A stretch of DNA of 31,823 bases, from the IMG/VR virus record IMGVR_UViG_3300010885_012858, positions 1-31,823 of that record; one strand, given 5' to 3'. The stretch's first letter is position 1, and every line of letters starts with the position of its first letter. This stretch comes from a virus. Shown here in pieces: positions 1,924 through 30,047 of this stretch. Under the pieces are notes generated by a model. That model saw nothing but the letters and a program-made list of their open reading frames with translations. It searched no databases and was not told the DNA's origin. The position numbers and the translations under genes are program-made.

Positions 1924-2378
1924 TGACACAGTATGCTTATCAGACAGGTGGTAAATCACACAAGTGGCTCTTTGACCCACAGACAATTGATTCCATTGGT
2001 CCTATCCTGTCTAAACTAGTAACTTATGATGTCTACTTTGAAATAGAAGAAGGACAGACTACACTCCAGATAGTCCTAGATAAGATATTAGAAGAGTTGC
2101 CACCACATTTAGAGGAGGCTGTAAGACTTACGTACCTAGCCGGTATATCATACCGTTCCGCTGCTAAGACAATCGGAGTTGACCATAAGACGGTCAAAGC
2201 CAGAGCAGATAAAGGCATAGGACTATTGCGTAAAAGACTTACAGACACAGTGTGGCTGGCATCTTTAGTTAGTAATATGATTCCACAAGACTCAGAAGAT
2301 ATTAAAAAAGTAACTTCACCGGATAAAATACTATCAGTACTAAACGGTATATCAGAGATAAGGAGTTCAAATGATTAA
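1923..2378 (+). CDS. Sigma-70 region 4-like helix-turn-helix protein
   Basis: A 151-residue protein with a region-4-type helix-turn-helix at about residues 58-107. It starts at LPPHLEEAVRLTYLAG and runs through ISYRSAAKTIGVDHKTVKARADKG, ending in the usual basic helix LLRKRL. No sigma region 2 is visible, so it is not a complete sigma factor. It could be a phage transcription regulator, an RNA polymerase-binding protein, or simply a DNA-binding protein with this fold. It overlaps the upstream gene by 1 base and the downstream gene by 8 bases. Because it is the only clear transcription-type DNA-binding protein in the window, it is a speculative candidate for recognising the repeated CTCCCCA-N6-GCTA motif in the late region. 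Confidence 0.8.
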   Translation: MTQYAYQTGGKSHKWLFDPQTIDSIGPILSKLVTYDVYFEIEEGQTTLQIVLDKILEELPPHLEEAVRLTYLAGISYRSAAKTIGVDHKTVKARADKGIGLLRKRLTDTVWLASLVSNMIPQDSEDIKKVTSPDKILSVLNGISEIRSSND

Positions 2379-10843: not shown

Positions 10844-10860
10844 TAATTACCTCTCTTAGT

Positions 10861-10877
10861 TAGCCATCTATGGGGAG
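10861..10877 (-). promoter_or_regulatory. Late-module motif copy A (CTCCCCA-N6-GCTA)
   Basis: On the + strand it reads TAGC-catcta-TGGGGAG. The motif lies between the stop of the 1626-residue gene and the ATG of the lysis coiled-coil gene, 17 bases before that ATG. In the transcribed direction it continues GCTAACTAAGAGAGG, into the ribosome-binding site. One of five copies. Confidence 0.65.
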
Positions 10878-13800
10878 TTATAACATTCCCAATGATTTCT
10901 TGTATTTTATAGTAGCCTCTGGTGTGATACCAGTAGGATTATTAGTATTGACAGTTACTTGACCCTGTCCGGATTGTAGCATTATTGCTATCTCTTGTGG
11001 AGTCTTGCCAATTCTTAACTGCTTTCTAATCCAGTCTGTATCATAGTTACCAGAAGCAGCAAGGTCTTTTATTATAGGGCGTTGTTTAGCAATACGCTTA
11101 TTAATCTCAGCACTGAATGTAGCAGGAGTTAGAGTAGTAGTAGAGAACCCACCAGCACCACCAATACCAGTTACGTTGAGAAGGTTAGATAACCCAGCAT
11201 TCTGTTGATTCTGTGAGAACAATAGATTTGGTTGAGTTCCAGGAATAAATGTAGCGGCAGCGGCAGCTGTTCTCTCAGCAGTTCCTAAGAATGGGAATAT
11301 ATCATTCATAAATCTAACTAACTTACTGTTAGCCTTAGTATCACCATCAGTTGTAGACTTAATTAAACCTAGTGGAGCAAAGATATTATAGTATCCAGGC
11401 ACTGATTCACCTGCTGGATTAGCAGTCTGCCCTGTAGATAGGTTAGTACCAGTTGCCACCTCAAGAGGAGTCTTTGTAGCAGGTCCAAGCATAGAAGCAA
11501 TTTCCTGTAACTTAGGCATACCAGTTGGTGTAAACAATCTGTTAAGGTCTTCATAAGGTAACTTCAAGAACATAGCAATATTATTACCACCAAACTTGAA
11601 TCTAGAAGCAAATCCATCCTGATTAACAATAAACTCAGGAAGCACCTGTTGCATCCAGGCATCATCCGAACTGAACTGGTTCTGGAACTCCTGGTTAGCG
11701 TACATAAATCTCTGTATCTTTCCAGGCTTCATAATAAGCAATCTGAATTGAGCAGGTACGTTGTTTCTTGTCCAAGTATAGAACGGTACTAAACGTCTTA
11801 TCTTTTGTTCTGCTCCAGATAAATCTTGATAGTTGAAGTGTAGAAGGTATACTCTATCCATAGCAGTATTAACATCTCCATACTTAGCCATACCATCAAG
11901 GAAGGCAGCATAACGAAGGAACAATTCTGAAGACTGACCCATATCAGTAAAGGCTCTTGATACAGGGTTAGATAGAATAAAGTCAATTACTTCACGATAC
12001 TTAGCCTCAGCATCATTAGCAGGAGCATTCTTATAAACAATACGGTTGGCTACACCACCTTGGAATACTGCTTCAGGAACATCAAAGCCAGCCTTCTTAA
12101 GCATATTAATAGTAGCAGTAGACTCTGTATTAGCAATACCACCGTAATCTAAGAACTTTTTCAAGTGAGTTTTAATTCTAGGATTAATCTCAGATAGAAT
12201 CTCTTCAGCAGCCTTAACGTTTTCAGGATAAGAACGCTCAGGATTTGTTTTCATAAGTTTAGCAACAGTATTATGGAACTGCCATAAGTCCTCAGCAGCC
12301 TGCTTGTGGTAAATAAGTTTAACATCCGCTGCGAAGTTCATAGATAAACCACCGGCAATGTTAGTAGTAACGAACCCAGGACCTCTACCAAGAGTTACAA
12401 CCCACTTCCACAGGTTAAGTAATGGGTCGATTACGTCAGTAATAAAGTTCTCAAATTGTGTAGGATTGGCTTTAATGCCATACATATTTTCCATAATCTT
12501 TACAACACCGTTTGAAGCAAAGAAGTCTCTAGTAACTTTATTAAGGTTAAGAATCTGCATACCTTCAGCACCTAAATACTGACCAAACTCTGAAGCCTTT
12601 TGCTTGCTATCAAAGATGTCTTTCTTAATATTATCTATACCTCTCTTAGATAACATATACTTAGTAGCTTCATCAGCACTAGTAAATGCTTCTGCTGGCA
12701 TAACCGTTCTAATGGTCTCAAAGGTTCTTACAAGGTCTCCGAATATCTGGTTACGGATATCATCAGGAATGTTAGGGTCATTAATACTGTCTAGTAACTT
12801 GTCTACAGTGCTACTAGATGATAGAACCTTATATGCCTGGAACTCATCATCACTTAATCTTTCTGAAGCAAGGATTGTATACTTAACATAGTTACCAAGT
12901 TTCTTATCAAGAAGTCTATTGCTTGTAGAACCAAGAAGGTCTTTAATACCCTGTCTCTTAGCCTTATAAACAGTTTCAAGTTCTTTTAGTTTAAGGTTTC
13001 TAAGTTCAATCGCATTCTTTATCTTAGCAGCAACATCTGCTTCTAGTTCAGTAAGTTTAGCTGGGTCAATAGTGTATCTTATATCATCTAACTCAGCCTT
13101 AAGTTTTTTCCTAAAGTCTGTTATTGAATACTTTGTGTTAAACTTATATTCATTAAATGCTTTTTTAGAAGTTAAGAAGTCATTAACTACTGAATCTAAT
13201 TGGTCTACATCTTCAATAGCCTGCTTTACAGAAACTCTATTATACTCTCTACGCTGTGCGGTTAGTTCTTCTTTAGCAGCCTTTAGTTTTTCTAATTGGT
13301 TTATTTTATTCTGTACAGCATTAGCATAAGAGGTAGCATCCATAACCTCATTAATAGCCTTAACAGCAATCTTGTGGTCTCTTAAGATGAAGGCAGTATC
13401 ACGCAACTGTGTACTTAATTCAAGTAATAGTTCTTCAGGATTTATAGCTAGTTTACTTGTCTTAGTAGAAGCCTTAATCTCCTCTATATTCTTTTTAAGA
13501 ATAGAAACAACTTCTTTGTTCTTGTTAGTAGATACTTCTTCTTTTAATAATCTTAGAAGTTCAGTATTTAAATCTACATCATCCTTGAGTTTAGCAATAC
13601 CCTTAGTTACACTAGTAACAACCTTTGACATTTCATTATAAGCATTAGATACATCAAGTACATCCTTCTCAAATTTATTTAACTGATTGTATGACTTTAC
13701 AAAGTTAGGTGTAGTTTTTCTTAACTCAATAGAAGCCTTATCATTCTCAACTCTAACAGAAGCAACTGCTTTTTCAGCATTATCGTATCTAGCCTTAGAA

Positions 13801-15758
13801 GCATCTCTTGCTGCTGTTAACTCAGTTTTAAGGTCATTAAGTTTATCAGGATTAACTACGGCATCAAGTTGCTTGTTATACGCATCCATTTGTTCATCAT
13901 AGAACTTCTTTATATCAGGCTCTGCGATAGTCATTAACTTAGTAAGATTAGCACCAGTCTTAGCATCCACAATTGTTCTGATTGCTGGTATATCCTTAAT
14001 GATAGTACCGAACTCGTTCATAACGTCTACAATCTTTTTTACAGACATACGGTTAGCAGCAGAACTAGCATAGGCAACGAATGCCTTTACTGGGTCTTCT
14101 TCATAGTGAACGGTAGTGTTAGGGTCTAGTGCTTTTTCAATCTCATTAGCACTCTGAGCATTGTTATAGTAAACATCTTTATTATCTACAAGTTCGTACT
14201 CACCAGTTTCCTTGTTCTTTACTTTTATCTTAGCCTGGAAACCTTTCTGTCTTGCTTCTTTAGCATTCTGTTCAAAGAACATATAACGTAAACGACCAAA
14301 GTTAGTTGAGTATTCTGAACCATTCATTCTTCCACGCTCTGTTGCCTTTTGCGCTTTAAGAGATGCCTCATCTAATACAAGTGGAGTCCAAGTCTCTGGG
14401 TCACCAATAACTCCAACCTCAATACCCATATCATTCATTTCTTTATGAAGAGCGTTCATTGATTCTCTTAGAGCATTAGCACCGTCAATAGCAAGTTTAT
14501 CTACAGCACTTACGTTAGGCTTAATAGATAGTGGTGAATGCCAGGCTTTTCTAAAGGTAGCATCAAATGCTTCATCTGTAAAGTTAGGTAGTTGTCTAGC
14601 ATATTCTTTATTGTGGTTAGCAAAAGAAACAGCACTAGTTATAGCTCCTTGAAGTTCCTCAAGTACTCTTCCACCAATTCTGAAAGCATCTTTAGTTCCT
14701 ACATAATCAATAAATCTATCAGCACCAGTTTTACCATTGTTCTTCCAAAGATTCTTATTTACGTTAGCAAGTATCTCACCTGCTTGACCCATATTTCTAG
14801 TGATAGGTCCTTTAAGAACAGAAGCACCAAGTCTTAATTTATTTAAACCCTCACCAAATTTACCTAGAGACTCACCAGTTCCTGGAGTCAGACGGATATA
14901 CTCACCGTTTGGTTGGGTGATTGGTCTACCTAAAATATTAGTTACAACTACTCCACCCTTAACCTCTTCAGGAAGGATACTGAATGCCTGTAGAGCGGCC
15001 TGCTTAGAGCCAAGTAGGTCGGTAAGTCTAGTTAAAACTTCTTTTCTACCGCCAGCCTTAAGACCTTCAGCAAGGTGGTTAGCAACATACTGCTTAGCGA
15101 GAATATCGTTAGATTGTGTCAGGAGGCCCTCAGGGTTAGCAGAAGGTATAAGTTCCTGTCTTTTGCTATTGGTAATGGCTTGACGTGATTTTGATGCCAA
15201 ATCGTCTATAAAAGCAGTCGAATTAGGGCTTAATTCTGCTAATTTCTCTACAAATTTTGAAGTATCACTTAAACTATGGCGAACTAGGAGTTGCGCTGCG
15301 GCATCTCTAGACAAAGCACCTGGTGCTCCTACATAAGATATAGGGTCTGTAACTACGTCTCCAACAAGTGAAGTACCATACTTAACAATCTTGGTGGCAA
15401 GGTTATCGTCAGGGTTAGTAGTAAGTAGTTGAGTCTGACCAAACCCTGGTTGTATCTTTCCAGTAAGTAATTGTTTGAATTCATCTAGACCAGAAGCATT
15501 CTCTAAATCTGGAGTAGTCATACCAGTTGCTTCCATTAACCCAGCACGGATTATGTTACCCGGTATAGCAAGTTTAGACAGGGTTGAAGTCAGGAATCCC
15601 TTGCCTGGTTTTTTGGAAGGGTCTTTATCACCGAGTGTTGTTAAGACTGATGTGTTTTTTGTATAGGTGTTTATAGCATCAAGTAATGCTTTATTTTTCT
15701 TGTCTAGATTTTTATCTCCGGAGCTAAATCCTGGTGTAAGATAATTACTTATTGGCAT
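10878..15758 (-). CDS. Giant internal virion / ejection protein
   Basis: At 1626 residues this is the largest protein in the window. It is third in a run of three large proteins after the tail genes, the position of gp14-gp15-gp16 in T7. It begins with a Lys-rich helical segment and a moderately hydrophobic region near 110-150 (SLVGDVVTDPISYVGAPGAL). A long coiled coil runs from roughly 620 to 960, followed by a region with FVTTNIAGGLSMNF and RRLVPFYTWTRNNVPAQF, and a Gly/Thr/Gln-rich C-terminus. No lysozyme or transglycosylase motif could be recognised. A role in DNA ejection or as a channel protein inside the head is inferred from size, composition and order. GGGGG precedes the ATG. Confidence 0.75.
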   Translation of the reverse strand: MPISNYLTPGFSSGDKNLDKKNKALLDAINTYTKNTSVLTTLGDKDPSKKPGKGFLTSTLSKLAIPGNIIRAGLMEATGMTTPDLENASGLDEFKQLLTGKIQPGFGQTQLLTTNPDDNLATKIVKYGTSLVGDVVTDPISYVGAPGALSRDAAAQLLVRHSLSDTSKFVEKLAELSPNSTAFIDDLASKSRQAITNSKRQELIPSANPEGLLTQSNDILAKQYVANHLAEGLKAGGRKEVLTRLTDLLGSKQAALQAFSILPEEVKGGVVVTNILGRPITQPNGEYIRLTPGTGESLGKFGEGLNKLRLGASVLKGPITRNMGQAGEILANVNKNLWKNNGKTGADRFIDYVGTKDAFRIGGRVLEELQGAITSAVSFANHNKEYARQLPNFTDEAFDATFRKAWHSPLSIKPNVSAVDKLAIDGANALRESMNALHKEMNDMGIEVGVIGDPETWTPLVLDEASLKAQKATERGRMNGSEYSTNFGRLRYMFFEQNAKEARQKGFQAKIKVKNKETGEYELVDNKDVYYNNAQSANEIEKALDPNTTVHYEEDPVKAFVAYASSAANRMSVKKIVDVMNEFGTIIKDIPAIRTIVDAKTGANLTKLMTIAEPDIKKFYDEQMDAYNKQLDAVVNPDKLNDLKTELTAARDASKARYDNAEKAVASVRVENDKASIELRKTTPNFVKSYNQLNKFEKDVLDVSNAYNEMSKVVTSVTKGIAKLKDDVDLNTELLRLLKEEVSTNKNKEVVSILKKNIEEIKASTKTSKLAINPEELLLELSTQLRDTAFILRDHKIAVKAINEVMDATSYANAVQNKINQLEKLKAAKEELTAQRREYNRVSVKQAIEDVDQLDSVVNDFLTSKKAFNEYKFNTKYSITDFRKKLKAELDDIRYTIDPAKLTELEADVAAKIKNAIELRNLKLKELETVYKAKRQGIKDLLGSTSNRLLDKKLGNYVKYTILASERLSDDEFQAYKVLSSSSTVDKLLDSINDPNIPDDIRNQIFGDLVRTFETIRTVMPAEAFTSADEATKYMLSKRGIDNIKKDIFDSKQKASEFGQYLGAEGMQILNLNKVTRDFFASNGVVKIMENMYGIKANPTQFENFITDVIDPLLNLWKWVVTLGRGPGFVTTNIAGGLSMNFAADVKLIYHKQAAEDLWQFHNTVAKLMKTNPERSYPENVKAAEEILSEINPRIKTHLKKFLDYGGIANTESTATINMLKKAGFDVPEAVFQGGVANRIVYKNAPANDAEAKYREVIDFILSNPVSRAFTDMGQSSELFLRYAAFLDGMAKYGDVNTAMDRVYLLHFNYQDLSGAEQKIRRLVPFYTWTRNNVPAQFRLLIMKPGKIQRFMYANQEFQNQFSSDDAWMQQVLPEFIVNQDGFASRFKFGGNNIAMFLKLPYEDLNRLFTPTGMPKLQEIASMLGPATKTPLEVATGTNLSTGQTANPAGESVPGYYNIFAPLGLIKSTTDGDTKANSKLVRFMNDIFPFLGTAERTAAAAATFIPGTQPNLLFSQNQQNAGLSNLLNVTGIGGAGGFSTTTLTPATFSAEINKRIAKQRPIIKDLAASGNYDTDWIRKQLRIGKTPQEIAIMLQSGQGQVTVNTNNPTGITPEATIKYKKSLGML

Positions 15759-15800
15759 ATTAAACCCCCGTTAAGACTCTATAAATTAATTCCTTATTCA

Positions 15801-16826
15801 TTAGATTCTGCCTAACATAGCGTTAACATAAATCTGGTCGTCTGACATTGTCTTACGTAATTCAGTTAGTGTAGCAGCAGGTATAATAGATGCTAAAGTC
15901 TGTTGCTTCTGACTTGTATTAAGTTTCTTCCAACCCTTATTTAAGATACTATTAATATCTGTCTGTGTTGGTATCACAGGAAGTGTTGTAGCAGCATTCA
16001 TCTTTTCTAATCCAGCATTCATTGCTAACTGAGCAAGAGCATCTTTCTTAGCAGCATTATTTTTTAAATCAGCATTGAATAACATACCTTGTAACTCACT
16101 AGCAAGATTCTGACTGTATCCCTGTCCAAATCTATTTATATCTGAGATACTAGCATCTCTATTAGCAGCATCCATATATGCCTGATTCTTTAAATACTGT
16201 GACATAACAGTTCCAGCATCTCTTATCTGTCCTGGCATTACGGCGTTATCTCCACTGGTAGGAACAATACCTGATTGTATATTACCAGTAGGAGCAGCAT
16301 TCATAGCATCTGCCTCGGCAGCAGCTTTTGCGTAATACTGATTAACAGCACTAGCATCAGCAGGTGTAGCCATTGTGTTCATACCTGTACTTAATTCATT
16401 TGATAAATTGCTATAAGCATCTCTACCTGACATATCAAGAGCAGCGTACATCTGTGCTAGTCTATCATAAGAGGCTGTATCTGGTGCGTAGGCTTGGTTA
16501 ATTAACTCCTGTTGCTTTTGTAGATTTTTATCAATTGTTTCAGTAGGAGTCATAAACCTAATATCTGTAGGAGAAACAGTGGGGTCTGGCTGAGTAGCTA
16601 GTTTATAAATACCTGTTCCTAATCCAGCAGCACCAAGCAAAGGAACAGTTATTTTAGTAATATCTCTAGCATTATTTACTCTAGTGTCAAAGAATTGTTT
16701 TGCTTTACTTGGTGTTTTAGGAATTATCTCTCCAAGGGCATCTCTCTTTAGAGGCTTGGCGAATAGTTTTTTAACTAAATCCAATCCTACATCTGCACCT
16801 AGTTTTATCTTTTTTAGTGGGTCCAC
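15801..16826 (-). CDS. Internal virion protein (341 aa), GTG start
   Basis: A 341-residue Ala/Asn/Gln/Met-rich helical protein with a hydrophobic Gly-rich stretch at about 59-77 (ITVPLLGAAGLGTGIYKLA). Composition and location, between the 415- and 1626-residue proteins, fit an internal core or ejection protein. The start codon is GTG, with AAGGAG 6 bases upstream. It begins one base after the upstream stop. Near its C-terminus (about 300-322, KLNTSQKQQTLASIIPAATLTEL) is a faint match to the L-x-x-x-Q...LLPxW...L-x-x-L tail seen in the tandem paralogs. Confidence 0.72.
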   Translation of the reverse strand: MDPLKKIKLGADVGLDLVKKLFAKPLKRDALGEIIPKTPSKAKQFFDTRVNNARDITKITVPLLGAAGLGTGIYKLATQPDPTVSPTDIRFMTPTETIDKNLQKQQELINQAYAPDTASYDRLAQMYAALDMSGRDAYSNLSNELSTGMNTMATPADASAVNQYYAKAAAEADAMNAAPTGNIQSGIVPTSGDNAVMPGQIRDAGTVMSQYLKNQAYMDAANRDASISDINRFGQGYSQNLASELQGMLFNADLKNNAAKKDALAQLAMNAGLEKMNAATTLPVIPTQTDINSILNKGWKKLNTSQKQQTLASIIPAATLTELRKTMSDDQIYVNAMLGRI

Positions 16827-16827
16827 G

Positions 16828-18075
16828 TTATTCTCCTTGTCCTAGTGAGTTTTTCTTTTTTAATGCGTTTAATGCTATTGTTTTAGCAAGAGCAATCTTA
16901 TCCATATCTTCCTGACGTAATGTACCAGCCTCAGAAGCTTTCTGCTTATTAGCTGCTTTTGCCGCGGCTGCTTCAGCATTAACTTTAGTAACCGCACCTG
17001 TTCCTTGAGCAATGTTTGCGTTAACTGCTGTATTGTATTGTCCTGGTGATGCTAGCATATTAAGAGATGCTAAAGCCGCTCTGGTGTCTAGATTTCTTCC
17101 AGTAGTTCCTCTATTAATCTGTCCTGCTTGATTAGCAGCGCCTTTTGTAATATTCTCATTTTGAGTATCTATCTGATTAAGTAAATCATTATAATGCTCA
17201 TCAACACTTCTTTTTTGTTGTGAGAAAAGTGCTTCAGTTTCTGGGTCTAATGTTATGTTACTAATTCGTCTTGCCTCTGCTTGTGTACGGTTTGCTTTAT
17301 CCCACTCTTTCCAGAAGTCAGAATTAGGAGAACCAAGTCCTTTTGCTTTATCCCACTCAGTAGTCATCTCAGCAGCACCTTTAGGGTTTGCCTTCTTATA
17401 GGTCTCCCAGAAGGTATCAGAACCAATACCAATATTTTTATCTACAGCATTAGCGGCAGCGTATGGATTTACTGGAGCAGAAGGAGTAGTAGTTTTTGGT
17501 TTGTACTTTTCATTAGCATTTGCGTTTGCTTCTTTAAGAGTGTTTAGTAATCCAAATACACTACCAGCACCTGTAAGTATTTGATTCTTCCAACCACTTT
17601 TAGCAAAATCTGTTAATCCCATTTTAATGCCAGATGTTAATGCTGGAGCTAAGGAAAATCCTGGAGTCATACCGGCTGCTAGACTTTCTCCATATGCAGC
17701 AGTTCCTCCTTTTAAACCTGCTCCTATACTTGGGCTAAATTTACCCATTGCGTATACTGCGGCTGCTGGAAGAAGAGCATTAGGTAAAGCATTTCTAACA
17801 TAGTCACCATAGTATCCCCAAGTATTTGCCTTAAATGGATTATAAATATTTGGTTGTTCCCAATTACCAGTTTTAGGATTAAAAACTTTATTAGCTTCCT
17901 TTGCTCTTTTATCATCTCCAGATAGTCCACCCCAGCCCCAAGATGCTGTTGCTCCTGTCATATTTCCGGCAGTATCGAGTAGGGACTTACCACCACCCAT
18001 AAGGTAATCATTTATAGAAGGGCTTTTTGCTGGCTGTCCGCCAGTATTGTATTGGTTGTTCCAGTTATCTGCCAT
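16828..18075 (-). CDS. Internal virion protein (415 aa)
   Basis: A 415-residue protein, Asn/Gly/Ala-rich at the N-terminus, with a moderately hydrophobic Gly/Ala region at about 95-185 (ALLPAAAVYAMGKF; ILTGAGSVFGLLNTL). A long Ala/Gln/Asn-rich helical C-terminal half contains IDTQNENITKGAANQAGQINRGTTGR. This resembles ejection proteins that insert in the host membrane. It is first of three large virion proteins in tandem and has a GAGAGG ribosome-binding site 5 bases from the ATG. The exact family is not recognised. Confidence 0.72.
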   Translation of the reverse strand: MADNWNNQYNTGGQPAKSPSINDYLMGGGKSLLDTAGNMTGATASWGWGGLSGDDKRAKEANKVFNPKTGNWEQPNIYNPFKANTWGYYGDYVRNALPNALLPAAAVYAMGKFSPSIGAGLKGGTAAYGESLAAGMTPGFSLAPALTSGIKMGLTDFAKSGWKNQILTGAGSVFGLLNTLKEANANANEKYKPKTTTPSAPVNPYAAANAVDKNIGIGSDTFWETYKKANPKGAAEMTTEWDKAKGLGSPNSDFWKEWDKANRTQAEARRISNITLDPETEALFSQQKRSVDEHYNDLLNQIDTQNENITKGAANQAGQINRGTTGRNLDTRAALASLNMLASPGQYNTAVNANIAQGTGAVTKVNAEAAAAKAANKQKASEAGTLRQEDMDKIALAKTIALNALKKKNSLGQGE

Positions 18076-18091
18076 ATTTACCTCTCTTAGT

Positions 18092-18108
18092 TAGCCCGCG
18101 GTGGGGAG
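18092..18108 (-). promoter_or_regulatory. Late-module motif copy B (CTCCCCA-N6-GCTA)
   Basis: On the + strand it reads TAGC-ccgcgg-TGGGGAG. The motif fills the 34-base gap between the tail protein stop and the ATG of the 415-residue internal protein. Its downstream side, GGCTAACTAAGAGAGGTAA, is identical to that of copy A over 19 bases. Confidence 0.65.
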
Positions 18109-18109
18109 T

Positions 18110-21647: not shown

Positions 21648-23020
21648 TAGTTCACCCTAAAATAAGGGATGTATTTGCGTTCTTCTACTCCTCTTATTCC
21701 TATCTGGAAAGCATCTGTATTGTGGTCTAAGTTATAGTATGATACAATCGCATCAAACATATCTCTTTCTTGCTGTATGTATATCTCTAATATCTTTTTG
21801 TTAGCATCAGGTGCGAATAAATATCCCTTGATTGCTGCTCTATAAGCAAGGATAGTAACGAACTGTGTAGCAAGTAATGTAGTTGAAGCATCAGATGACA
21901 TTAAGTCACCATTCTTTACATAACGAATTCTAACAGTTAAGTTTTCTGTAGGTGTAGGAGCAATAGTAATAACTCCAGCAGGTGTAGTACTAAAGAAATA
22001 CTTATCATTGTTATCATCAATATCGTGAAGTGTTGGTCTCTGTGTTACAGGGTCAATTCTTAAACCATTTGTATTGATTACATATATACCCATAACCTTA
22101 CCAGTGCCACCGGCAGGTAGAGTAATAACGCTAGTTCCGGATGCGACAGCTACTTCTGTTTCTACCTGTAACCATTTCCAGTCTCTTTGATTCTGTAATA
22201 ATGTGTATGCTTCATTTAACCAAGTGTTAATAAGAACATCTGGAATATCTTTGCTATAGTTACCCATCAATGAACGAGTATAAACTCTTAGTTGAGCAAG
22301 TGTAGTTGGAGAAGCAGTCTGTAGTGTGTAAAGAGTTACTCTCTTCATTCTATCAAGAATATCAGAATACTCTAATAGATATGCTTTTGTGAGTTGTTCA
22401 GGTAATCCTAATTCAGCTGCTATTTTAGCAGAAGCACCATAAGCAAGTATCTTAGCATATTCCGCAATAGCACTCAAGTTACCAGAACTATAAGTCCAAG
22501 ACCAAGTAAAGGCATCTGCTAGTATCTTGTATTCATCTTTAAGTTTATTTTCAATATATGTATTTGAGATACTTCCATCATACACACTAGTTAACTGTCT
22601 TACGAACTTTACAAGTTTAGAATAATCTGTATAGTCACCAGTGTTAATAACATCACCAGTAATAGCAATTTGTAAATCATCTTGACGTAGAGCATCAACC
22701 ATTGTCTTGTAGATACTAAGGTATTCTTGAGCCCTTGTAGTATCATCAGCCTGGGTTATTAAAACAACCGCAGCGGCTTTATAAGCAAGCAGTGGATGGA
22801 ATTGTGCTGGGAAGGCAGGAGCATCTGTACCACTAGCTAAAGCGGCAGCTGGAGAGGCAGTATTGGACCAGGTCCATTCCTGTTGGGTACTTAAGTCAGA
22901 GTAGGCCTCATTAATGTATCCGTATAGAATATCATTTGTAAGAATATCTGTGGAGAACACTCCAGTTAGATTTCGTACATAAACACCTAGTGCTGTTAAA
23001 TTATAAGTTGTATAAGCCAA
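21647..23020 (-). CDS. Tail adaptor (tail tubular A-like) with three internal repeats, TTG start
   Basis: A 457-residue helical head-tail adaptor, larger than T7 gp11 (about 200 residues). It contains three related units: about 11-112 (LGVYVRNLTG...INEAY...EWTW...LLAYKAA), 136-225 (LVKFVRQLTS...KDEY...FTWSW...ILAYGAS) and 244-430 (LRVYTRSLMG...LNEAY...DWKW...ILAYRAA). The third unit carries a beta insertion from about 286 to 370. The start codon is TTG, supported by GGAGG 5 bases upstream and by the absence of any nearby ATG. It follows the capsid terminator and motif copy C, so it opens the tail module. Confidence 0.8.
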   Translation of the reverse strand: MAYTTYNLTALGVYVRNLTGVFSTDILTNDILYGYINEAYSDLSTQQEWTWSNTASPAAALASGTDAPAFPAQFHPLLAYKAAAVVLITQADDTTRAQEYLSIYKTMVDALRQDDLQIAITGDVINTGDYTDYSKLVKFVRQLTSVYDGSISNTYIENKLKDEYKILADAFTWSWTYSSGNLSAIAEYAKILAYGASAKIAAELGLPEQLTKAYLLEYSDILDRMKRVTLYTLQTASPTTLAQLRVYTRSLMGNYSKDIPDVLINTWLNEAYTLLQNQRDWKWLQVETEVAVASGTSVITLPAGGTGKVMGIYVINTNGLRIDPVTQRPTLHDIDDNNDKYFFSTTPAGVITIAPTPTENLTVRIRYVKNGDLMSSDASTTLLATQFVTILAYRAAIKGYLFAPDANKKILEIYIQQERDMFDAIVSYYNLDHNTDAFQIGIRGVEERKYIPYFRVN

Positions 23021-23048
23021 TTTGACCTCCGATAGTTATCTTCATTGT

Positions 23049-23065
23049 TAGCCGTTCGTGGGGAG
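23049..23065 (-). promoter_or_regulatory. Late-module motif copy C (CTCCCCA-N6-GCTA)
   Basis: On the + strand it reads TAGC-cgttcg-TGGGGAG. The motif lies directly downstream of the capsid terminator and 29 bases before the TTG start of the adaptor gene. A regulatory site placed right after a terminator is what one expects of a new promoter. Confidence 0.7.
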
Positions 23066-23071
23066 AAAATG

Positions 23072-23100
23072 AAAACCCCCCTAACCCGAAGGCTAGAGGG
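23072..23100 (-). terminator. Intrinsic terminator after the major capsid gene (UUCG loop)
   Basis: In the transcribed direction a 10-bp stem (23100-23091 with 23086-23077, two G-U pairs) closes on the extra-stable C(UUCG)G tetraloop, followed by G and then TTTTCATTTTC. It lies about 20 bases after the capsid stop codon. It would separate scaffold/capsid transcription from the tail genes. Confidence 0.9.
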
Positions 23101-23121
23101 ATTCCCAATCAATCTGGTAGA

Positions 23122-24327
23122 TTAAGCGGTTCTAATAAGAAGACCGTTAGCTCTACGTTCCGCAACGCCAACCTGAAGGGTTGAAGCGATAGGAACAACA
23201 GTGTCCAGAGTTCCTTCTAGAGGAACAGCTGGGAATGACTTCATAAATTCTCCAGCACAGTATCCGAAACGGAGTGATGGCTGGTTGATGAAGTATGCAC
23301 GGTCATCCTGGCAATCTGGGTCGAGGCGAACCTCAAGGTTACCAAACTTGATGGTAGTGAAACGAGTTTCAGCAGTACCTTGTGGGTTTGTGTATTGACC
23401 CTTTGTCTGTAAGAATGCTTCAAGCTCTTCGAACACATCGAAACCTGCGATGATGTGAGTTGGGCGCTTTGAAGAAGCACGGTAGATTTCGTTAGTTACT
23501 TTACGGAAAGCAGCAACAATATCTGTAGCAGCCTTAGATGAAGTAATTTCTGTAGCTGTCCAGTAATCCTTGATAGCATCTGCGACTACTGTACCTGCTG
23601 TAGCAGCGGTAGAAGCAACGTTTGATGCTGTCTTAGCATAAGAGATTGTTGTAGCAGCAACAGCTGTAAGTACGAATGTACCGTTGAATGTTGTATCAGC
23701 AACGCTAGCAACTACAACTGAGTCACCAACAATATAATCGTTAGCTCCCACTGTAAGTGTTGCTACGTTAGATGTAAGTGCGAAGTTAGTTACAGACTTA
23801 GTTGAAACTCCACCACGAATACCACCAACGGTACGAGCAGAAGTAGTTGACAACTTGTCAGAGTTTGATACTAGCATATCCATAGAGATAAGCTTTCCAG
23901 TTGACCAAGCAGAGCCTAGTTTGTGGAGTTCGTTAGTGATGAAGAGTGAGTGGTCTGCCTGAGCAGCTGTCACATAAGATTCAACAAGGTTAACGATTTG
24001 TTCAGGACCTGAGTTCTGAAGGATGTCTCTGTGGTTAAGTCTAAATGGTGTAATGATTCCTGATGCCCAGTCAAAGACAGCAGAACCCATAATATCCGCT
24101 GACTTAGCGGTTGAGTGTGTACCAGCAGCATCTGTATAACCAGTTGCTCCAAGGTTAGCAGCACGTAGAGGAATAACCAATCCACGTCCTGTAATTGATT
24201 TAGCAGATGATTTGAAGAGTTCTAGTGTTGGGTGCTCTTTAAGAACGTTATCAACGAGAGTCTTCTCATATCTTTGTAGTGTTGTTGTAAAGGTTTGCAC
24301 GAAGAATGCATCACCGAGTGCGGCCAT
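23122..24327 (-). CDS. Major capsid protein (HK97 fold) with an inserted beta domain
   Basis: A 401-residue major capsid protein. The N-terminal arm (1-50), the P-domain-like segment around ITPFRLNHRDIL (91-103) and the C-terminal strands (NLEVRLDPDCQDDRAYFIN, PLEGTLDTVVPIASTLQVGV) fit HK97-fold capsids of podoviruses. Residues about 177-250 form an extra Ala/Thr/Val-rich domain (NVATLTVGANDYIVGDSVVV through FNGTFVLTAVAATTISY) that looks like a small beta insertion. Scaffold lies upstream and adaptor downstream. GGAGG is 7 bases before the ATG, and expression is likely very high given the dedicated terminator. Confidence 0.9.
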   Translation of the reverse strand: MAALGDAFFVQTFTTTLQRYEKTLVDNVLKEHPTLELFKSSAKSITGRGLVIPLRAANLGATGYTDAAGTHSTAKSADIMGSAVFDWASGIITPFRLNHRDILQNSGPEQIVNLVESYVTAAQADHSLFITNELHKLGSAWSTGKLISMDMLVSNSDKLSTTSARTVGGIRGGVSTKSVTNFALTSNVATLTVGANDYIVGDSVVVASVADTTFNGTFVLTAVAATTISYAKTASNVASTAATAGTVVADAIKDYWTATEITSSKAATDIVAAFRKVTNEIYRASSKRPTHIIAGFDVFEELEAFLQTKGQYTNPQGTAETRFTTIKFGNLEVRLDPDCQDDRAYFINQPSLRFGYCAGEFMKSFPAVPLEGTLDTVVPIASTLQVGVAERRANGLLIRTA

Positions 24328-24390
24328 AGTATTACCTCCTAAGTAATTGTAGTATTGGCATAGTTAGTTTTTGACTAAACCGCAAGAATA

Positions 24391-25410
24391 TTAGTTGCCA
24401 GATTCTTTCATAGCCTGGCGTATTAATGCGTTTAAGTCAGTTCCATCTGTCATTGGAGAACCTTCTCCAGCTCCAGAACGGGAGACTACGTTTGTAGCCT
24501 TTTTTGCTTTCGCTTTTTCGATTGTTCGTTTAGCGATTTTTTGTTTTGTTTTTGACTCTTCATACTTAAATGCTTTGTAAGCAGTATTAAGATTTGTTAA
24601 ATCGTTTTCAGAAGCGTAAGAAGCAAGTTCCTGACGGAATGCTGCTCTTTGCTTTGTATTGAATTCTAAACCTTCGCTTTCAATGATTGAGTCAATTTGA
24701 CTATCATATTCAGCAATGGCTTTCTGGATATCTAACTCTAGTCTAGCATCCTCAAATTCCTTCTCTTTAGAAGAAGTAACTTTTGAATTCTGAGCCTGAA
24801 GTTTATCAATCTCACTTTGTCTACGCCATTCGTTTTGAATGTCTGGAGTAATACCAAACATATCTAAGAACTGACGGTCCAATACATTGTCTGCCGCTAA
24901 ATCACGTATTAACAATGCGATGGCTTGAGTGGGGTTCTCTGTGCTTTGTACGAAGTGGGAAATAACACCAACTGGGTTATCATTCCAAGCAGTATCAAGT
25001 TCTGTAAGAGCTTCAAACTGTTCTGAAAATTCCTGCTTCACTGCCTCTACCTTTTCGATATCGGCTTTAAGCGCCTGCTTCTCACGGGTGTAATCTGCTT
25101 GGCGTTGGTATCCTGACTTAAGTTCATCGAGTGTAACCTCGAACTTCTGACCATCTACCTTAACAGAGTATTTCTCTCCATCGCTGTCAGTAGAATCTTC
25201 TGTTTCATCTTCATCGGAATCTTCGTCTTCATCATCCTCGTCTAGTAAGTCATCAAGTCCGTCGTCTTCGACTTCACTATCAACTTCTTCGTCTTCGAAT
25301 AAATATTCTTCTAATTCTTCTGTATTGTCCGCTCCTTCCTGATTATCCAGGGCTTCTGGGTTCAATTCAGTTGCGGCGTTTGCGATTATTTCTTTTAATT
25401 CATCTGACAT
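24391..25410 (-). CDS. Scaffolding protein
   Basis: A 339-residue highly acidic protein. Residues 1-80 are dominated by Glu and Asp (DDLLDEDDEDEDSDED). Next comes a short beta motif (EKYSVKVDGQKFEVTLDELKSGYQRQADYTREKQAL, about 79-114) that recurs in scaffolding proteins of marine and freshwater podoviruses. A helical central region and a Lys-rich C-terminal capsid-binding tail follow (KTKQKIAKRTIEKAKAKKA). It sits between portal and capsid, the usual position. GGGAG precedes the ATG. It is expected to shape procapsid assembly and leave the mature head. Confidence 0.88.
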   Translation of the reverse strand: MSDELKEIIANAATELNPEALDNQEGADNTEELEEYLFEDEEVDSEVEDDGLDDLLDEDDEDEDSDEDETEDSTDSDGEKYSVKVDGQKFEVTLDELKSGYQRQADYTREKQALKADIEKVEAVKQEFSEQFEALTELDTAWNDNPVGVISHFVQSTENPTQAIALLIRDLAADNVLDRQFLDMFGITPDIQNEWRRQSEIDKLQAQNSKVTSSKEKEFEDARLELDIQKAIAEYDSQIDSIIESEGLEFNTKQRAAFRQELASYASENDLTNLNTAYKAFKYEESKTKQKIAKRTIEKAKAKKATNVVSRSGAGEGSPMTDGTDLNALIRQAMKESGN

Positions 25411-25544
25411 ATATTCTCCCTAACTAGTCCGAATGCTACCTAGATTGTCCACGGCGTGGGTTCATCAGTATGCTTGTTCGTTGGGATACGGAAATATCCC
25501 TCTATATATAGCACAAGATGGGGAGTTTTTCCTCCCCACCCTAT
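25411..25544 (-). other. Structured leader of the scaffold gene
   Basis: This 134-base gap holds three hairpins: GGGGAG/CTCCCC with a 6-base loop (25519-25538), GGGATA/TATCCC (25483-25500) and CCAC/GTGG (25449-25459), plus TATATATA at 25503-25510. It also contains motif copy D. It has no coding frame. It is probably the leader or regulatory region for scaffold and capsid expression. Confidence 0.5.
25509..25525 (-). promoter_or_regulatory. Late-module motif copy D (CTCCCCA-N6-GCTA)
   Basis: On the + strand it reads TAGC-acaaga-TGGGGAG. The motif lies about 100 bases before the scaffold ATG. The heptamer is also one arm of a perfect 7-bp inverted repeat (25519-25538). Downstream in the transcribed direction is TATATATAGA, which is A+T rich like the GCTATAG following copy E. 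Confidence 0.65.
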
Positions 25545-25946
25545 TTAAGCCGCTTGAATACCGGTTAGTTTTTGATTCAGGTCTTTACAGGCTATACTGA
25601 CAGTTGATAATAGTTTTCCATCTATCAAGTAATCTATAGTAACCACTTCAATATCTTTAGTCTGGCAAGCGCTTACAGCGGATGCTAGTATATAAAGTGA
25701 TATAGACTGCTCTTCGTTGGGTTCTAAAACTCTATTATTGTCAATAGTTATAATATCTCTTTTAATGCTATATGTATTTATAAATGTTTCTTTTACTTGG
25801 AAGCCAGTTTCTTTCTTTAATACTTTAATATAATCAGAGTCAGTAGACTGGGTATTATGAGTAGAAGTATATACAAATAGCAAACCGCCTATACCTATAA
25901 GCATTAAGCCTATAAATGTAAGTATGGTTTCTAGTTTACTATTCAT
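25545..25946 (-). CDS. Single-pass membrane protein
   Basis: A 133-residue protein with an N-terminal membrane helix at about 8-26 (ILTFIGLMLIGIGGLLFVY) and an exported C-terminal domain that is beta-rich. Two cysteines (94 and 120) could form a disulfide. No family was recognised. A location between portal and scaffold is unusual for a membrane protein and suggests an accessory gene, perhaps for superinfection exclusion or envelope modification, but there is no direct evidence. Its ATG overlaps the upstream Cys-rich gene by 8 bases. Confidence 0.7.
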   Translation of the reverse strand: MNSKLETILTFIGLMLIGIGGLLFVYTSTHNTQSTDSDYIKVLKKETGFQVKETFINTYSIKRDIITIDNNRVLEPNEEQSISLYILASAVSACQTKDIEVVTIDYLIDGKLLSTVSIACKDLNQKLTGIQAA

Positions 25947-26142
25947 TACAGTTACAATCTTCTGGTGCTTGCTGGCAGTCTTTACAAACTACATCACAAC
26001 CACAGTTACATTTGACAGCACTTTCGCTTTCGCCTTCTGTCATATCTTCTGCATTGTCTTCTGATTTATTCATTGGCTCTTTGTAATTACCGCCTTCTTC
26101 TGCCATAGCATTAAGTGCTTCGGCTTTTGGATTCATCTTCAT
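25939..26142 (-). CDS. Small Cys-rich acidic protein
   Basis: A 67-residue acidic protein with seven cysteines clustered at the C-terminus (45, 47, 49, 53, 56, 63, 65, in C-x-C-x-C...C-x-x-C...C-x-C spacing). Such a cluster can bind zinc or another metal. The first 40 residues are Glu/Asn-rich and probably disordered. The ATG overlaps the portal stop by 4 bases, and AAGGAGG lies 6 bases upstream. The function is unknown. Confidence 0.72.
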   Translation of the reverse strand: MKMNPKAEALNAMAEEGGNYKEPMNKSEDNAEDMTEGESESAVKCNCGCDVVCKDCQQAPEDCNCNE

Positions 26143-28043
26143 CCTATTCCTCCTTCCGTTGCTAGTGGGACTGGACTTCCACCCATACTCAACAGTTGCT
26201 GGAGCATAGCGGAATTTTGGTCTGGTTGCGGTTGAACCTGTGGCGCACCCTCTGGCATCTGTCCTTGAGGAGCTTGACCCTGAGGTGGCATTGGTGGTTG
26301 TTGAACCTTAACCAGAATATTGTCTGGGTTTAATCCCATATATGATAGAGCAGTTCTGATAGTAGGTTCTGGGTCGTAACCAAGTTTACTTAACATAGGA
26401 ACAATCTGCATTAATAATTCTTGTCCTTGACGTTGTCTTGTAGCAGGGTTGATAGCAGAGGTAGAACCACCTTCGATTTCAATGTAGAACTCTCCTTCAA
26501 TATCTTCCTCAGTTACTTGTAACCAAGTTGGTGCGGCTGGTCCGGCAATACGAATTGCTCTTGAGTTATCTAAGAACTGTTGGCATAGAGCAAGCATTCT
26601 AATAGCAATTTCTTTAGAAGCGTTCTCAACGTTAGTCATCTTATCAAGTGCTCTTGTTGTAGATGCTCCTTCAATAGCAGCGGATGCTGTAGCAGATACT
26701 CTGTTAGCAGCTTGTGCGTTACCCATCTGGAAATCAGAGATACCAAGAAGTCTCTGCATATAGTCCTGGAGTTTACCTTCCATCATATAGTTATCAGAAG
26801 GTGTTGCTAAACGAGTTACAGGTTGCATAACATCATTGAATGTCATATTGTTTGGTAGGTCGATAGGAATTACACCGTCAGCCTTGTTGTCTTGAAGTGC
26901 TTTAGTTACTTCTGGTGTTAGTATCTTCTTGTTAATAAAGTACTTGTTACCAACACGCTTTAGGTCGTTAAGTTCTGCGTGAATAATTTCGTTAATCATC
27001 AACTGAATACCAGCAATGTTCTCAAGGTCACCGAATGCCCAGATAGTATTACCACCGTCAGAGAAGTTTCTCATATGAACGAATGGTGAGTATCTGTGGT
27101 CGTAAGGAATTGGTCCTTCAAATAACTCTACTTCAGAATCTAATTGGAAGATAGAGATAGTTCTTTCTTTCATATCGTAGAATTCATAGATTGTAGCGTG
27201 TGTAAAGATAGCAGGAAGTGCTTGTTCAGTTTGTTCGTACTGCATAATAGTTGCAGGGTCAGTATAACCTGTATCAGGTTTAATATTCTCTAAAGCAGCT
27301 TTATTAAATAAAGTATTTGCTTTAAGTTCTTCAATAGGAATTCTAATCTTCTGTGCTACCCAACGAGAAGTATTTAATCTACGAGCATCAGCCGGCAAGA
27401 ACATATCATATGGTGAGACATATTCCAAAAAAGGCTCATCTAGTTCAACCAGATTTTGTGTAAGAGTAACTGATTCAACAATCTCATTAATTGTATTTTG
27501 GTCTAAAGGCATACCAGACTCTTGAGCAACCTCTTGAGCTGCTGAAACTAGGTCTGTAACCTCAATGCCAACTTCACCTTTAGTCTTATCAATAGTAGAT
27601 TCAGAATATGACCAACCCACTTTACCGAATCCGTTTCCAAGGATAACCATATCCTGGGTGATATCCCGTAGAGTAGCGGTGGCTTCTGTTCTCTTCCAGA
27701 AATAGTCAAGAATGTTTTTAGCAATCATAGCGTTACGTTCTACAGTATTGATATCTCCACCAACAGGTGTTACTACGAACTTAGGGTCTCTTGATACAAC
27801 AGAGTTTACAATCATTGATAGGTGAGGAAGAACCATATTAACAGTACGAAGGAATGCTCCAGATACTGGGAATGGGAGAATGCGATTAACATCAAGCATT
27901 GTTAGTTCACGTTGAGCACCTGTGCGGTAAAGTGCTTCAAGCATACGCCAGTGATTGTGTACAGGCTCTAATCTCCTGCTAGCATCACGAAGTACGGCTT
28001 GCTTATCTTTAAGCGAGTAGCCTTTTTGTTTCTTATCTTCCAT
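26139..28043 (-). CDS. Portal protein (head-tail connector)
   Basis: A 634-residue portal of podovirus type, the dodecameric ring through which DNA enters and leaves the head. Features are an N-terminal helical region (LEPVHNHWRMLEALYRTG), a conserved LPHLSMIVNSVVSRDPKFVVTP stretch (about 72-93), a central wing/stem with IPYDHRYSPFVHMRNFSDGG, the QNTINEIV and RALDKMTNVENASKEIA helices, and a Pro/Gln/Met-rich C-terminal tail (PPMPPQGQAPQGQMPEG). It starts inside the terminase stop (TAATG), with GAGAGG upstream, the standard terminase-portal order. The family assignment rests on context plus these segments. Confidence 0.85.
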   Translation of the reverse strand: MEDKKQKGYSLKDKQAVLRDASRRLEPVHNHWRMLEALYRTGAQRELTMLDVNRILPFPVSGAFLRTVNMVLPHLSMIVNSVVSRDPKFVVTPVGGDINTVERNAMIAKNILDYFWKRTEATATLRDITQDMVILGNGFGKVGWSYSESTIDKTKGEVGIEVTDLVSAAQEVAQESGMPLDQNTINEIVESVTLTQNLVELDEPFLEYVSPYDMFLPADARRLNTSRWVAQKIRIPIEELKANTLFNKAALENIKPDTGYTDPATIMQYEQTEQALPAIFTHATIYEFYDMKERTISIFQLDSEVELFEGPIPYDHRYSPFVHMRNFSDGGNTIWAFGDLENIAGIQLMINEIIHAELNDLKRVGNKYFINKKILTPEVTKALQDNKADGVIPIDLPNNMTFNDVMQPVTRLATPSDNYMMEGKLQDYMQRLLGISDFQMGNAQAANRVSATASAAIEGASTTRALDKMTNVENASKEIAIRMLALCQQFLDNSRAIRIAGPAAPTWLQVTEEDIEGEFYIEIEGGSTSAINPATRQRQGQELLMQIVPMLSKLGYDPEPTIRTALSYMGLNPDNILVKVQQPPMPPQGQAPQGQMPEGAPQVQPQPDQNSAMLQQLLSMGGSPVPLATEGGIG

Positions 28044-29824
28044 TACATTCCTCTCAAATAATCGTTATTAATGTAGAACACTTCATCTAACTGTTGTTGC
28101 TGTTCTTCCATCTCGAGCATCTTACGTTCTCGTGCTTCTTGGATAAACTTAACACTGAAACGACCAGTCTCTTGCCAAGTATTATCCTCAACTATAGCCT
28201 GTTGTGGGGAGGAAAGTTGGTACTCTTCTACAAGTATCCATAGGGATATAGCTAATGACATAATTAAGTCGTCGTGACAACCGATATCAGCAGCATAACG
28301 AACGTTTCCGTTGGCAGTCTCTTGGGTTACGAACTGTCCTAGTTCCATTCTAAGTAAAGGATAGACGTTATCAATAGAACACTCACCATCTGTGAATACA
28401 AGGTACTTAGCCAATCTATCGATAACTGCTTTTCTTCTGTCAGAGGTCATAGGGAACTCGAAAAGTCTCGTTTTATTGCGTGTTTTAGAGCCAATTGTTT
28501 GATAAATATAGGCATTTGGGTAGTCAAGGTGTCGGTGGAGTTCGTTTATGGGTAAACTACCCTGTGAGCCCTGATTTTCGATTGCTAGCAAAGCAGCCCA
28601 AGACCTACCGTTAAAGTATCTTCCTGCTTTATCTAAGTCAGCAGCGTATTCAGTTGGAGAAATAACATTACTGTGGTAGTATCCTATAATGATTGCTCGT
28701 TTCTCTTCATCAAAAGTCATAATGTGAGCAGTTGAGTAGTCCTTACCTTGACCAGTAGCAGGGTCACCACCGATTACGTAGAAGGCTGTAGGGTCTACAT
28801 CTAAAGTAGCAAGTCTTAATGGACCTGTTTCATCAAACTCGAAGTCAATAATATCATCATTCTTCCAAACAAAGTTACCTCTGATAGGAAAGTCTACAAA
28901 GTCTTGTTCTAATGGTAATCCAGTAAAGCGAGGACGACCTGATTCTCTAAATGCTTCTTCATCATCTCTAGGATATTCTTGATAAAAACGCCAAGGTTCA
29001 TCCGCAAAGTCTCTACGTTTTAAATCGTACTTAGAAGCACAAGGAGTTTTAGTTCCTTTAGGTCCTGAACACCAATCGCACTCATTACTACACTGCATAA
29101 AGGGAGATACTGACCAAGGTCTAAAGAACGCAACGAATTGAGACTCACCTCTTTTAGCTGCTTTATAAGTTTTAGCAAATCTGTTGTAACCACCTCTAGA
29201 AGTAGAAATCTTAATCATAGAACCACCAGCATCAGTCGTAGGCATAAGGGTTCTAAACACGTCTTCCTGGCGACTAGCGGGCTCTACAAGACCTGCCTCG
29301 TCCAGAATAACCAGGGAAGCAGTTTCACCCGCGAAAACGCCTTCAGTGGCTGCGGATGATTTAAGTTTAGATAACATACCGTCATTGAATTCAAAGGTCA
29401 TACCATCAGTAGAATCCGAGATAAGTTTAGGGGCTCTTTCTTTTAACCATTGTGGAAGGAACTGGTAAGCAAGACGGGCTTGGGCAAGGTTTTTATTTGC
29501 GGACTTTTGGTTACGAGATACAATAAGAATATTAGCACCGGGTCTGAAGAAAGCAAGCCAGAGTGAGTGTGCCATAGCCAGTGTGGTATAACCTAACTGA
29601 CGAGCCTTGAGAGCTGTAACGAAGCGATTAGATTTAAATAGATTAAGTAATTCAATCTGATAATCAAATAGGTCAAACTTGACACGACCGCGAGGGTCTT
29701 TTTCAGCAGGGATGTATACGTAGTTACTTAGAAAGTATTCTTCATCCTGATAGCATCTACGCCATTCAAGTTCTACTAAAAATTTATTTAGCTCTTGTTG
29801 TTTCCTATTTTCATTCAGACTCAT
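28043..29824 (-). CDS. terL: Terminase large subunit
   Basis: A 593-residue packaging motor. The ATPase half has a Walker A-like KARQLGYTT (73-81) and Walker B LVILDEAG (171-178, D175/E176). The nuclease half has D354 (IGGDPA), E416 (AIEN) and H517-D518-D519 (CHDDLIMSLA), the RNase H-fold metal site. Between the halves is a four-cysteine cluster, C245-x3-C249-x2-C252-x9-C262, that looks like a zinc knuckle. It cuts and pumps DNA into the procapsid, with the small subunit and portal as partners. GGAG is 4 bases before the ATG. Motif copy E lies inside its 3' end. Confidence 0.95.
   Translation of the reverse strand: MSLNENRKQQELNKFLVELEWRRCYQDEEYFLSNYVYIPAEKDPRGRVKFDLFDYQIELLNLFKSNRFVTALKARQLGYTTLAMAHSLWLAFFRPGANILIVSRNQKSANKNLAQARLAYQFLPQWLKERAPKLISDSTDGMTFEFNDGMLSKLKSSAATEGVFAGETASLVILDEAGLVEPASRQEDVFRTLMPTTDAGGSMIKISTSRGGYNRFAKTYKAAKRGESQFVAFFRPWSVSPFMQCSNECDWCSGPKGTKTPCASKYDLKRRDFADEPWRFYQEYPRDDEEAFRESGRPRFTGLPLEQDFVDFPIRGNFVWKNDDIIDFEFDETGPLRLATLDVDPTAFYVIGGDPATGQGKDYSTAHIMTFDEEKRAIIIGYYHSNVISPTEYAADLDKAGRYFNGRSWAALLAIENQGSQGSLPINELHRHLDYPNAYIYQTIGSKTRNKTRLFEFPMTSDRRKAVIDRLAKYLVFTDGECSIDNVYPLLRMELGQFVTQETANGNVRYAADIGCHDDLIMSLAISLWILVEEYQLSSPQQAIVEDNTWQETGRFSVKFIQEARERKMLEMEEQQQQLDEVFYINNDYLRGM
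28195..28211 (-). promoter_or_regulatory. Late-module motif copy E (CTCCCCA-N6-GCTA), inside terL
   Basis: On the + strand it reads TAGC-ctgttg-TGGGGAG. The motif lies within the last 170 bases of terL and about 150 bases before the portal ATG. In the transcribed direction it is followed by GCTATAGTTG. It has the same spacing and orientation as the four intergenic copies. Confidence 0.6.
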
Positions 29825-30044
29825 CTAGCTCCCTAAACGAACGCTTATGCCAAATAGCAGCAACATCAAATTCACCTGTATCTAGTTTACTTAAAGGAAC
29901 AATTCTACCACCGCAGTGACAAGCAATATATGAACCGTCTTCGTGTACGTCTCTGTTATCATCAACAGGGTAACCTAACCAATTGCGTAAGTGAAGGTTC
30001 TTATCTTTGTTTTGTCTTTCTTGGAAGGCGTGTAGTAGCATCAT
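29811..30044 (-). CDS. Small Cys/His protein upstream of terL
   Basis: A 77-residue protein with C42-H43-C44-GGRIVPLS and a later H66, so it could bind one zinc ion. The N-terminus is basic and the C-terminus acidic. It overlaps terL by 14 bases and starts 3 bases after the terS stop, so it belongs to the packaging operon. The Shine-Dalgarno is weak, and either of two adjacent ATGs could be used. The function is unknown; a packaging cofactor is a guess from position. Confidence 0.65.
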   Translation of the reverse strand: MMLLHAFQERQNKDKNLHLRNWLGYPVDDNRDVHEDGSYIACHCGGRIVPLSKLDTGEFDVAAIWHKRSFRELDESE

Positions 30045-30047
30045 AAT

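Follow-up and report, generated by a model that had tools for sequence, protein, structure and literature searches.

A repeated late-strand element and its candidate sigma-region-4-like reader in a phage family without close cultured relatives

How does a phage divide its late genes into separately transcribed units, and which protein reads the signals that would start them? The virus record IMGVR_UViG_3300010885_012858 raises this question, and the whole of it (31,823 bp, hereafter the window) was analysed here. Judged by comparison with its relatives, the window is a genome fragment, with early genes on the + strand, from the left edge onward, and late genes on the - strand. A previous inspection of the letters by themselves (the sequence-only reading) had pointed to five copies of TAGC-N6-TGGGGAG at late-module boundaries, and had suggested promoters of a single-subunit phage RNA polymerase or, as an alternative, sites for a protein resembling sigma region 4. 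We find that the element is conserved on the late strand of related phages, that other clades carry a different upstream box at corresponding places, and that the recognition helix of the region-4-like protein (the region-4 protein) differs where the box differs. The element is very probably the late promoter of this phage, and with a probability of roughly 0.6 we estimate that the copies are late promoters read by the region-4 protein, with the host RNA polymerase doing the synthesis.

A conserved element at late-module boundaries

Written on the transcribed strand as CTCCCCA-N6-GCTA, the motif has five exact copies in the window (copies A to E, Table 1), all on the - strand and none on the other, and it does not occur once in 100 dinucleotide shuffles of the window, so that both the one-way arrangement first described and its excess over chance hold. 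The order of the late modules behind the copies is also as had been proposed, with the correction that copy E is not intergenic but intragenic, about 150 bp ahead of the portal start. Copies A and B stand immediately behind the stop codon of the upstream gene with a Shine-Dalgarno sequence adjoining them (copy A between the stop of 10878-15758 and the Shine-Dalgarno sequence of 10442-10843), and copy C directly follows an intrinsic terminator, as had been noted. Relatives carry an additional copy ahead of the small terminase gene, a region that in the window is cut by the contig end.

A search with the capsid protein identified 18 related contigs and terminase alignments added further ones, with no cultured phage among them. 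The sole portal match in phage records was MW202803 (27% identity), itself from a spring sample; the region-4 protein had no match in the phage collection, and bacterial genome contigs aligned with terminase and capsid in an attempt at host identification yielded no relatives. By these comparisons, the phage family has no close relative in culture. The 78 sequences of a terminase tree form clade 1 (33 rows, including the window), clade 2 (18), clade 3 (15) and clade 4 (12, looser), with clades 1 and 3 as sisters (support 99/98). One clade-1 relative of 41,074 bp (G019, IMGVR_UViG_3300011113_000340; L125-L127) has a 127-bp direct terminal repeat, from which we judge it to be a complete genome for this uncultured family.

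Clade-1 copies, gathered with one mismatch allowed, were sorted into three classes: terminase-internal, inverted-box and other intergenic. Their logo reads (C/T)TCCCCA-C-n-n-n-C-G-G-C-T-A-W-n-n-n-T-R-R-R-G, and we number it on the transcribed strand, with the clade-specific box at 1-7, GGCTAW at 13-18, T at 22 and purines at 23-26. The six bases between the two parts, which had been taken as free sequence, are thus C-n-n-n-C-G across relatives. Upstream of position 1 the logo holds information only in the inverted-box class and in the terminase, where coding accounts for it. In clade 1, all 75 matches to the refined form [CT]TCCCCA-N5-GGCT-N5-T-R fall on the late strand and none on the early strand (24 of 29 non-redundant contigs, 417 kb); simulated sequence contains no match, and the core form has no copy in 661 kb of distant terminase relatives. 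The scan of related contigs that had been proposed as a check therefore finds the motif at orthologous boundaries: ahead of the small terminase, within the terminase, ahead of the scaffold and ahead of the first tail gene.

Two familiar promoter classes were considered and rejected. For a sigma-70 promoter (TTGACA/TATAAT, 16-18 bp apart), the -35-equivalent positions of the logo carry no information; sigma-70-like sites over 15900-31823 are fewer than in shuffles, and late strands have hardly any scoring 11/12 or better. For a sigma-54 promoter (-24 GG / -12 GC, ten bases between), the GC is found at 14-15 in clade 1, with TC standing where GG is required, and is missing in clades 2 and 3.

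Conservation of the terminase-internal copy is not owed to the protein, because in all 25 clade-1 genes with an aligned Ser-Pro under the box the serine codon is TCC and in all 25 the proline codon is CCA, against backgrounds of 13% of serines (500 upstream codons) and 26%. This codon test rules out protein conservation as the cause, and the terminase-internal copies are under selection at the nucleotide level. Across the family, 28 of 133 sites have a terminator-like hairpin at most 75 nt upstream, compared with 7 of 665 random places, a layout as expected where transcription stops and restarts. An RNA processing or stability element, cut at T22/R23 to leave hairpin-capped leaders and involving no promoter, would also occur on the sense strand only and would have hairpins and Shine-Dalgarno sequences beginning at about position 23, as is the case here (see below). 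We consider it very unlikely, given that copies stand directly behind strong terminators, which should leave little read-through RNA, and that the box co-varies with a DNA-binding helix.

Clade-specific boxes and the candidate reader

In clade 2, the top family of an unbiased repeated-pair search was TGTCGG-N10-ATAG/A, the sites of which match the clade-1 places: ahead of the terminase, inside it, ahead of the scaffold and after the capsid terminator. De novo pair searches in clades 3 and 4 were swamped by low-complexity repeats, and their motifs, CGCCCCA-N10-ATA-n-T-R and TGCCACA-N8/9-TAYAK-n-T-R respectively, were located via the terminase end and the scaffold leader. Each of these three variants closes with a T at position 22, or occasionally at 23, with a purine behind it, and the overall length of the element is the same across clades 1-4 despite the different boxes. 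The position of copy C is kept in clades 1-3 and that of copy D in clades 1-4, and each box variant is exclusive to its own clade, with no occurrence in any other. Late- and early-strand copies number 33 and 0 for the clade-2 variant (12/12 contigs), 13 and 0 for clade 3 (11/12) and 5 and 1 for clade 4 (3/8); together with the 75 and 0 of clade 1, these counts show the pattern sought for a phage sigma factor with cognate promoters, namely a motif shared upstream of late genes and absent from early ones. A clade-4 box on the early strand at 7336 of G041 (L220) is apparently divergent from the pre-terminase copy.

Orthologues of the region-4 protein are present in 14 of 16 genomes chosen for early-region coverage, representing all four clades. 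The window protein matches Pfam PF08281 at 29.1 bits (cut-off 25.7), a domain detected in 12 of the 13 proteins examined, and all the orthologues have region 4. AlphaFold models its residues 47-107 well, as a helix-turn-helix (HTH), and both structure and sequence comparisons match the protein best to region-4 domains of sigma factors, among them that of sigma-E on its -35 DNA. Among the NCBIfam matches listed (25 of 29 for the window protein; 25 of 62 across 13 orthologues), there is no RinA/ArpU model. Six of the eight fixed differences between the clade-1 and clade-2 proteins fall within the 13-residue recognition helix (Fisher p=1e-5), which reads DHKTVKxR in clade 1 and SDQTxRRE in clade 2. 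Clades 1 and 3 have CCCCA of the box in common, and also the helix residues D87, H88, K89 and R94; the idea that the clade-3 box resembles the clade-1 box against phylogeny was dropped because the terminase tree makes the two clades sisters.

The region-4 protein is the strongest candidate reader of the upstream box: it has orthologues in every clade, and where the box differs its recognition helix differs too. The regulator site that the sequence-only reading had offered as its second choice fits better than its first. Since promoter sequence and the DNA-reading part of the protein change together between phage groups, the region-4 protein is likely the switch for late gene expression. A near-perfect sigma-70 promoter (TTGACA-17-TATACT) lies at 1718-1746 (+ strand), inside gene 1537-1923 and upstream of the region-4 gene; it is not conserved, and relatives are nearly without such sites.

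Position of the start and proposed mechanism

Pre-scaffold leaders, picked by the downstream sequence CGAA(C/T)A, form hairpins of unrelated sequence in the four clades. Of 26 distinct leaders, 22 have a stem of at least 6 bp that begins 0-3 nt past T22, where shuffles gave 1.4 on average and 7 at most; other sites show no hairpin excess (7/102 vs 11 in shuffles). At many compact sites, including copies A and B, a Shine-Dalgarno sequence begins at 23-28, with the ATG shortly after. Position 23 of the logo is always a purine and position 22 nearly always T, though neither was required in the collection, a pattern that fits a transcript start (Y at -1, R at +1). From the hairpins, the Shine-Dalgarno sequences and T22/R23, we infer a start at about position 23. 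The central point of the sequence-only reading, that the copies are late promoters at module boundaries whose transcripts start at or just behind the motif, is well supported by the late-strand counts, the leader hairpins and Shine-Dalgarno placement, the terminators and the codon test.

As had been argued, the layout, with the element at roughly -22 to -1, is closer to that of a single-subunit polymerase promoter than to that of a -35/-10 promoter: if transcripts start at 23, recognition would lie close upstream (-22 to -6), the final bases are A+T-rich, the start is purine-rich and the leaders have 5' hairpins. The polymerase itself was not found. PF00940 had no match in 19 family records, nor then in five (three of them new: G019, G024, G022), including the complete G019, in a search whose positive control recovered T7 at 1e-110. 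The largest G019 proteins outside the known head and packaging set are a tail-type protein of 883 amino acids, a tail fibre and a late protein of 1664 amino acids; the last has no PHROG match, and its window orthologue has no PDB sequence match. A polymerase hidden in this late protein of about 1600 amino acids was rejected, there being no PHROG or PDB sequence match and no conserved polymerase motif; an AlphaFold model of residues 700-1626 (predicted local distance difference test, pLDDT, 58) was mostly helix and too poor to use. A reader of the very divergent single-subunit kind is thus not supported, and we regard it as improbable. The late protein in question (10878-15758, 1626 amino acids) is conserved in all clades (20-34%), has a PFYTWxRNNxPxQ stretch near residue 1325 and no PHROG, Pfam or PDB sequence match, and is probably an internal virion protein.

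Several points weigh against a region-4 protein working with the host polymerase. A start at 23 puts the box at -22 to -16, nearer than normal recognition of a -35 element allows, and leaves no -10 element in its usual place, while the usual -10 geometry (T22 at -7) puts the start near 29, so that hairpin arms and Shine-Dalgarno sequences would be lost. The candidate reader shows region 4 only: region 2 was not detectable in the protein or its orthologues (13 orthologues examined). It is possible that region 2 has gone unrecognised within the N-terminal 45 residues; because it was not found, we do not claim membership of the sigma factors proper. The helix test comprises nine sequences from two clades and hence one evolutionary contrast, and because this is a single contrast, with support from a third clade, we do not call the region-4 protein a proven reader. 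The clade-4 evidence is thin, and clade 4 is the weakest part, because its variant amounts to six copies, five late and one early, in 3/8 contigs.

A further point of this kind concerns an early, DNA-binding-type protein of about 200 amino acids with two HTH regions, which occurs in clades 1-3 (L032 9056-9763; G007 28056-28763) and whose place is beyond the left edge of the window. It is conserved and its helices likewise differ between clades, so that the same late promoters might have their box read by this or another phage protein. It was not found in clade 4, however, is present in 6/16 genomes compared with 14/16 for the region-4 protein, and has too few sequences for co-variation; another reader of this sort appears quite doubtful.

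The start near 29 belongs with a classical activator, in which the box, at about -28 to -22, would replace the -35 element and the host sigma factor would read positions 17-22 as the -10. These positions are frequently NATANT, no -35 signal is present upstream in the logo, and a MotA box at -30 that replaces the -35 is established (PMC6755090). On the other hand, clade-1 copies are often without A at the second -10 position, and the start near 29 removes the 5' arm of the hairpins of four clades and the Shine-Dalgarno sequence of many compact sites, so we consider such an activator unlikely. The predicted start at about 23 thus disagrees with the usual spacing of the host polymerase (about 29): initiation may be unusual in this family, or else transcripts may begin closer to 29, with the hairpins acting in read-through RNA.

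In the favoured mechanism, the region-4 protein would be made early, from the opposite strand, and each copy would act as a late promoter of about 26 bp. The protein would contact the upstream box via its recognition helix and recruit the host RNA polymerase, which would melt the A+T-rich positions 17-22 and initiate at about position 23. The late region would thereby be split into separately started modules (terminase, portal, scaffold/capsid, tail, internal proteins and lysis), one of which would restart straight after the capsid terminator. An inverted box (TGGGGAR) precedes the clade-1 copies at 14/14 pre-scaffold, 9/13 pre-small-terminase, 1/13 tail and 0/22 terminase-internal sites, and a search of clades 2-4 with a simple pattern showed no counterpart. 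At the clade-1 scaffold and small-terminase promoters, this extra box may serve a second protein subunit, perhaps giving stronger or dimeric binding at the strongest promoters.

A more far-reaching proposal is that a stand-alone region-4 protein without region 2 redirects the host polymerase to start about 16 bases downstream of its box, and that changes in the recognition helix reset specificity between clades with promoter positions and length fixed. We advance this tentatively, as something more likely false than true. If the start were truly 16 bases from the box, we know of no sigma-dependent promoter with this initiation geometry. If correct, the proposal would define a 22-bp promoter of compact architecture that differs from -35/-10, MotA and sigma-54 promoters. 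The favoured mechanism itself offers, for a phage family without a close cultured relative, a testable late-gene switch with four natural box/helix pairs. One homologous protein appears to shift its specificity in step with all its promoters, which would make this a clean system for the co-evolution of a regulator and dozens of dispersed sites.

Table 1. Positions of the features of the window discussed in the text.
Feature	Coordinates	Strand	Details
Candidate box reader, sigma-70 region-4-like protein	1923..2378	+	151 amino acids; recognition helix residues 86-98
Predicted late promoter, copy A	10852..10877	-	box CTCCCCA 10877-10871, then GGCTA, AGAGAGG; inferred start near 10855; target: holin-like and endolysin genes
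Predicted late promoter, copy B	18083..18108	-	inferred start near 18086; target: internal-protein genes 16828-18075 and 15801-16826
Predicted late promoter, copy C	23040..23065	-	inferred start near 23043; tail genes behind it
Intrinsic terminator, strong	23070..23107	-	3' of capsid gene, adjoins copy C
Conserved leader sequence CGAACAAG	25473..25480	-	behind hairpin; pre-scaffold leaders, four clades; also used to select them
5' leader hairpin of scaffold transcript	25483..25500	-	GGGATAT-TTCC-GTATCCC; from position 26, 3 nt after inferred start 23
Predicted late promoter, copy D	25500..25525	-	inferred start near 25503; scaffold and capsid genes behind it
Inverted box TGGGGAG of copy D	25532..25538	-	six bases upstream; dyad TGGGGAG-N6-CTCCCCA
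Predicted late promoter, copy E	28186..28211	-	inferred start near 28189; within 3' end of terminase gene 28043-29824

Comparison with known late-gene systems

The nearest published case is that of phages phiEco32 and 7-11, in which a phage sigma-family protein serves several dispersed late promoters with the host RNA polymerase (PMC8948821). Their sigma factors, gp36 and SaPh711_gp47, use different late promoters at similar genome places, so that, as in the present family, related phages retain the positions of promoters and not their sequence; the authors predicted the discovery of further sigma/promoter pairs (PMC8948821). The differences are in descent, architecture and domains. The sigma factors of phiEco32 and 7-11 were acquired independently, whereas the present clades share one orthologous protein with an altered recognition helix. 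The 7-11 promoter is GTAAtg-16-aCTA and that of phiEco32 a single tAATGTAtA, compared with an element of 22-26 bp with a short inter-box gap here. Proteins of the phiEco32/7-11 kind have region 2 plus, at least in 7-11, region 4, while only region 4 is detected in the present protein. By analogy, we infer that the region-4 protein and its element work like a phage sigma/promoter pair.

Late promoters of T7 have their element next to the start, and 5' hairpin leaders are found as in T7 gene 10 mRNA. The present family is similar in its short element abutting the predicted start, one per late module, and in its 5' hairpin leaders; it differs in having an upstream C-rich box and another sequence, and no T7-type polymerase gene was found in the PF00940 search. 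T7-type promoters span about -17 to +6 with a purine start; in the present element a start at 23 is predicted from hairpins, Shine-Dalgarno sequences and T22/R23.

MotA is not a region-4 fold. The likeness to T4 MotA/AsiA is that of a phage DNA-binding protein reading a box that substitutes for the -35 (PMC6755090), although the MotA box is at -30 with a normal -10 and start, and the start that we place here would be much closer to the box. RinA/Ltr of Gram-positive phages are likewise small phage proteins that switch on packaging, capsid and lysis genes, but Ltr acts at a single late promoter whose repeats span about -107 to -42 (PMC13123087), whereas here there is one short element per module. 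The present layout corresponds to neither the MotA nor the Ltr arrangement.

Two minor observations concern other sequences of the late region. In the pre-scaffold leaders (25473-25503 of the window, L050, L129 and L220), a variable 5' hairpin is followed by CGAACAA in four clades, and the two together possibly form a separate conserved leader element. The late region of a clade-2 phage (L052 12620-12710, G024) contains about five copies of a tandem 18-bp repeat (ACCCCT...GGTAACAACC).

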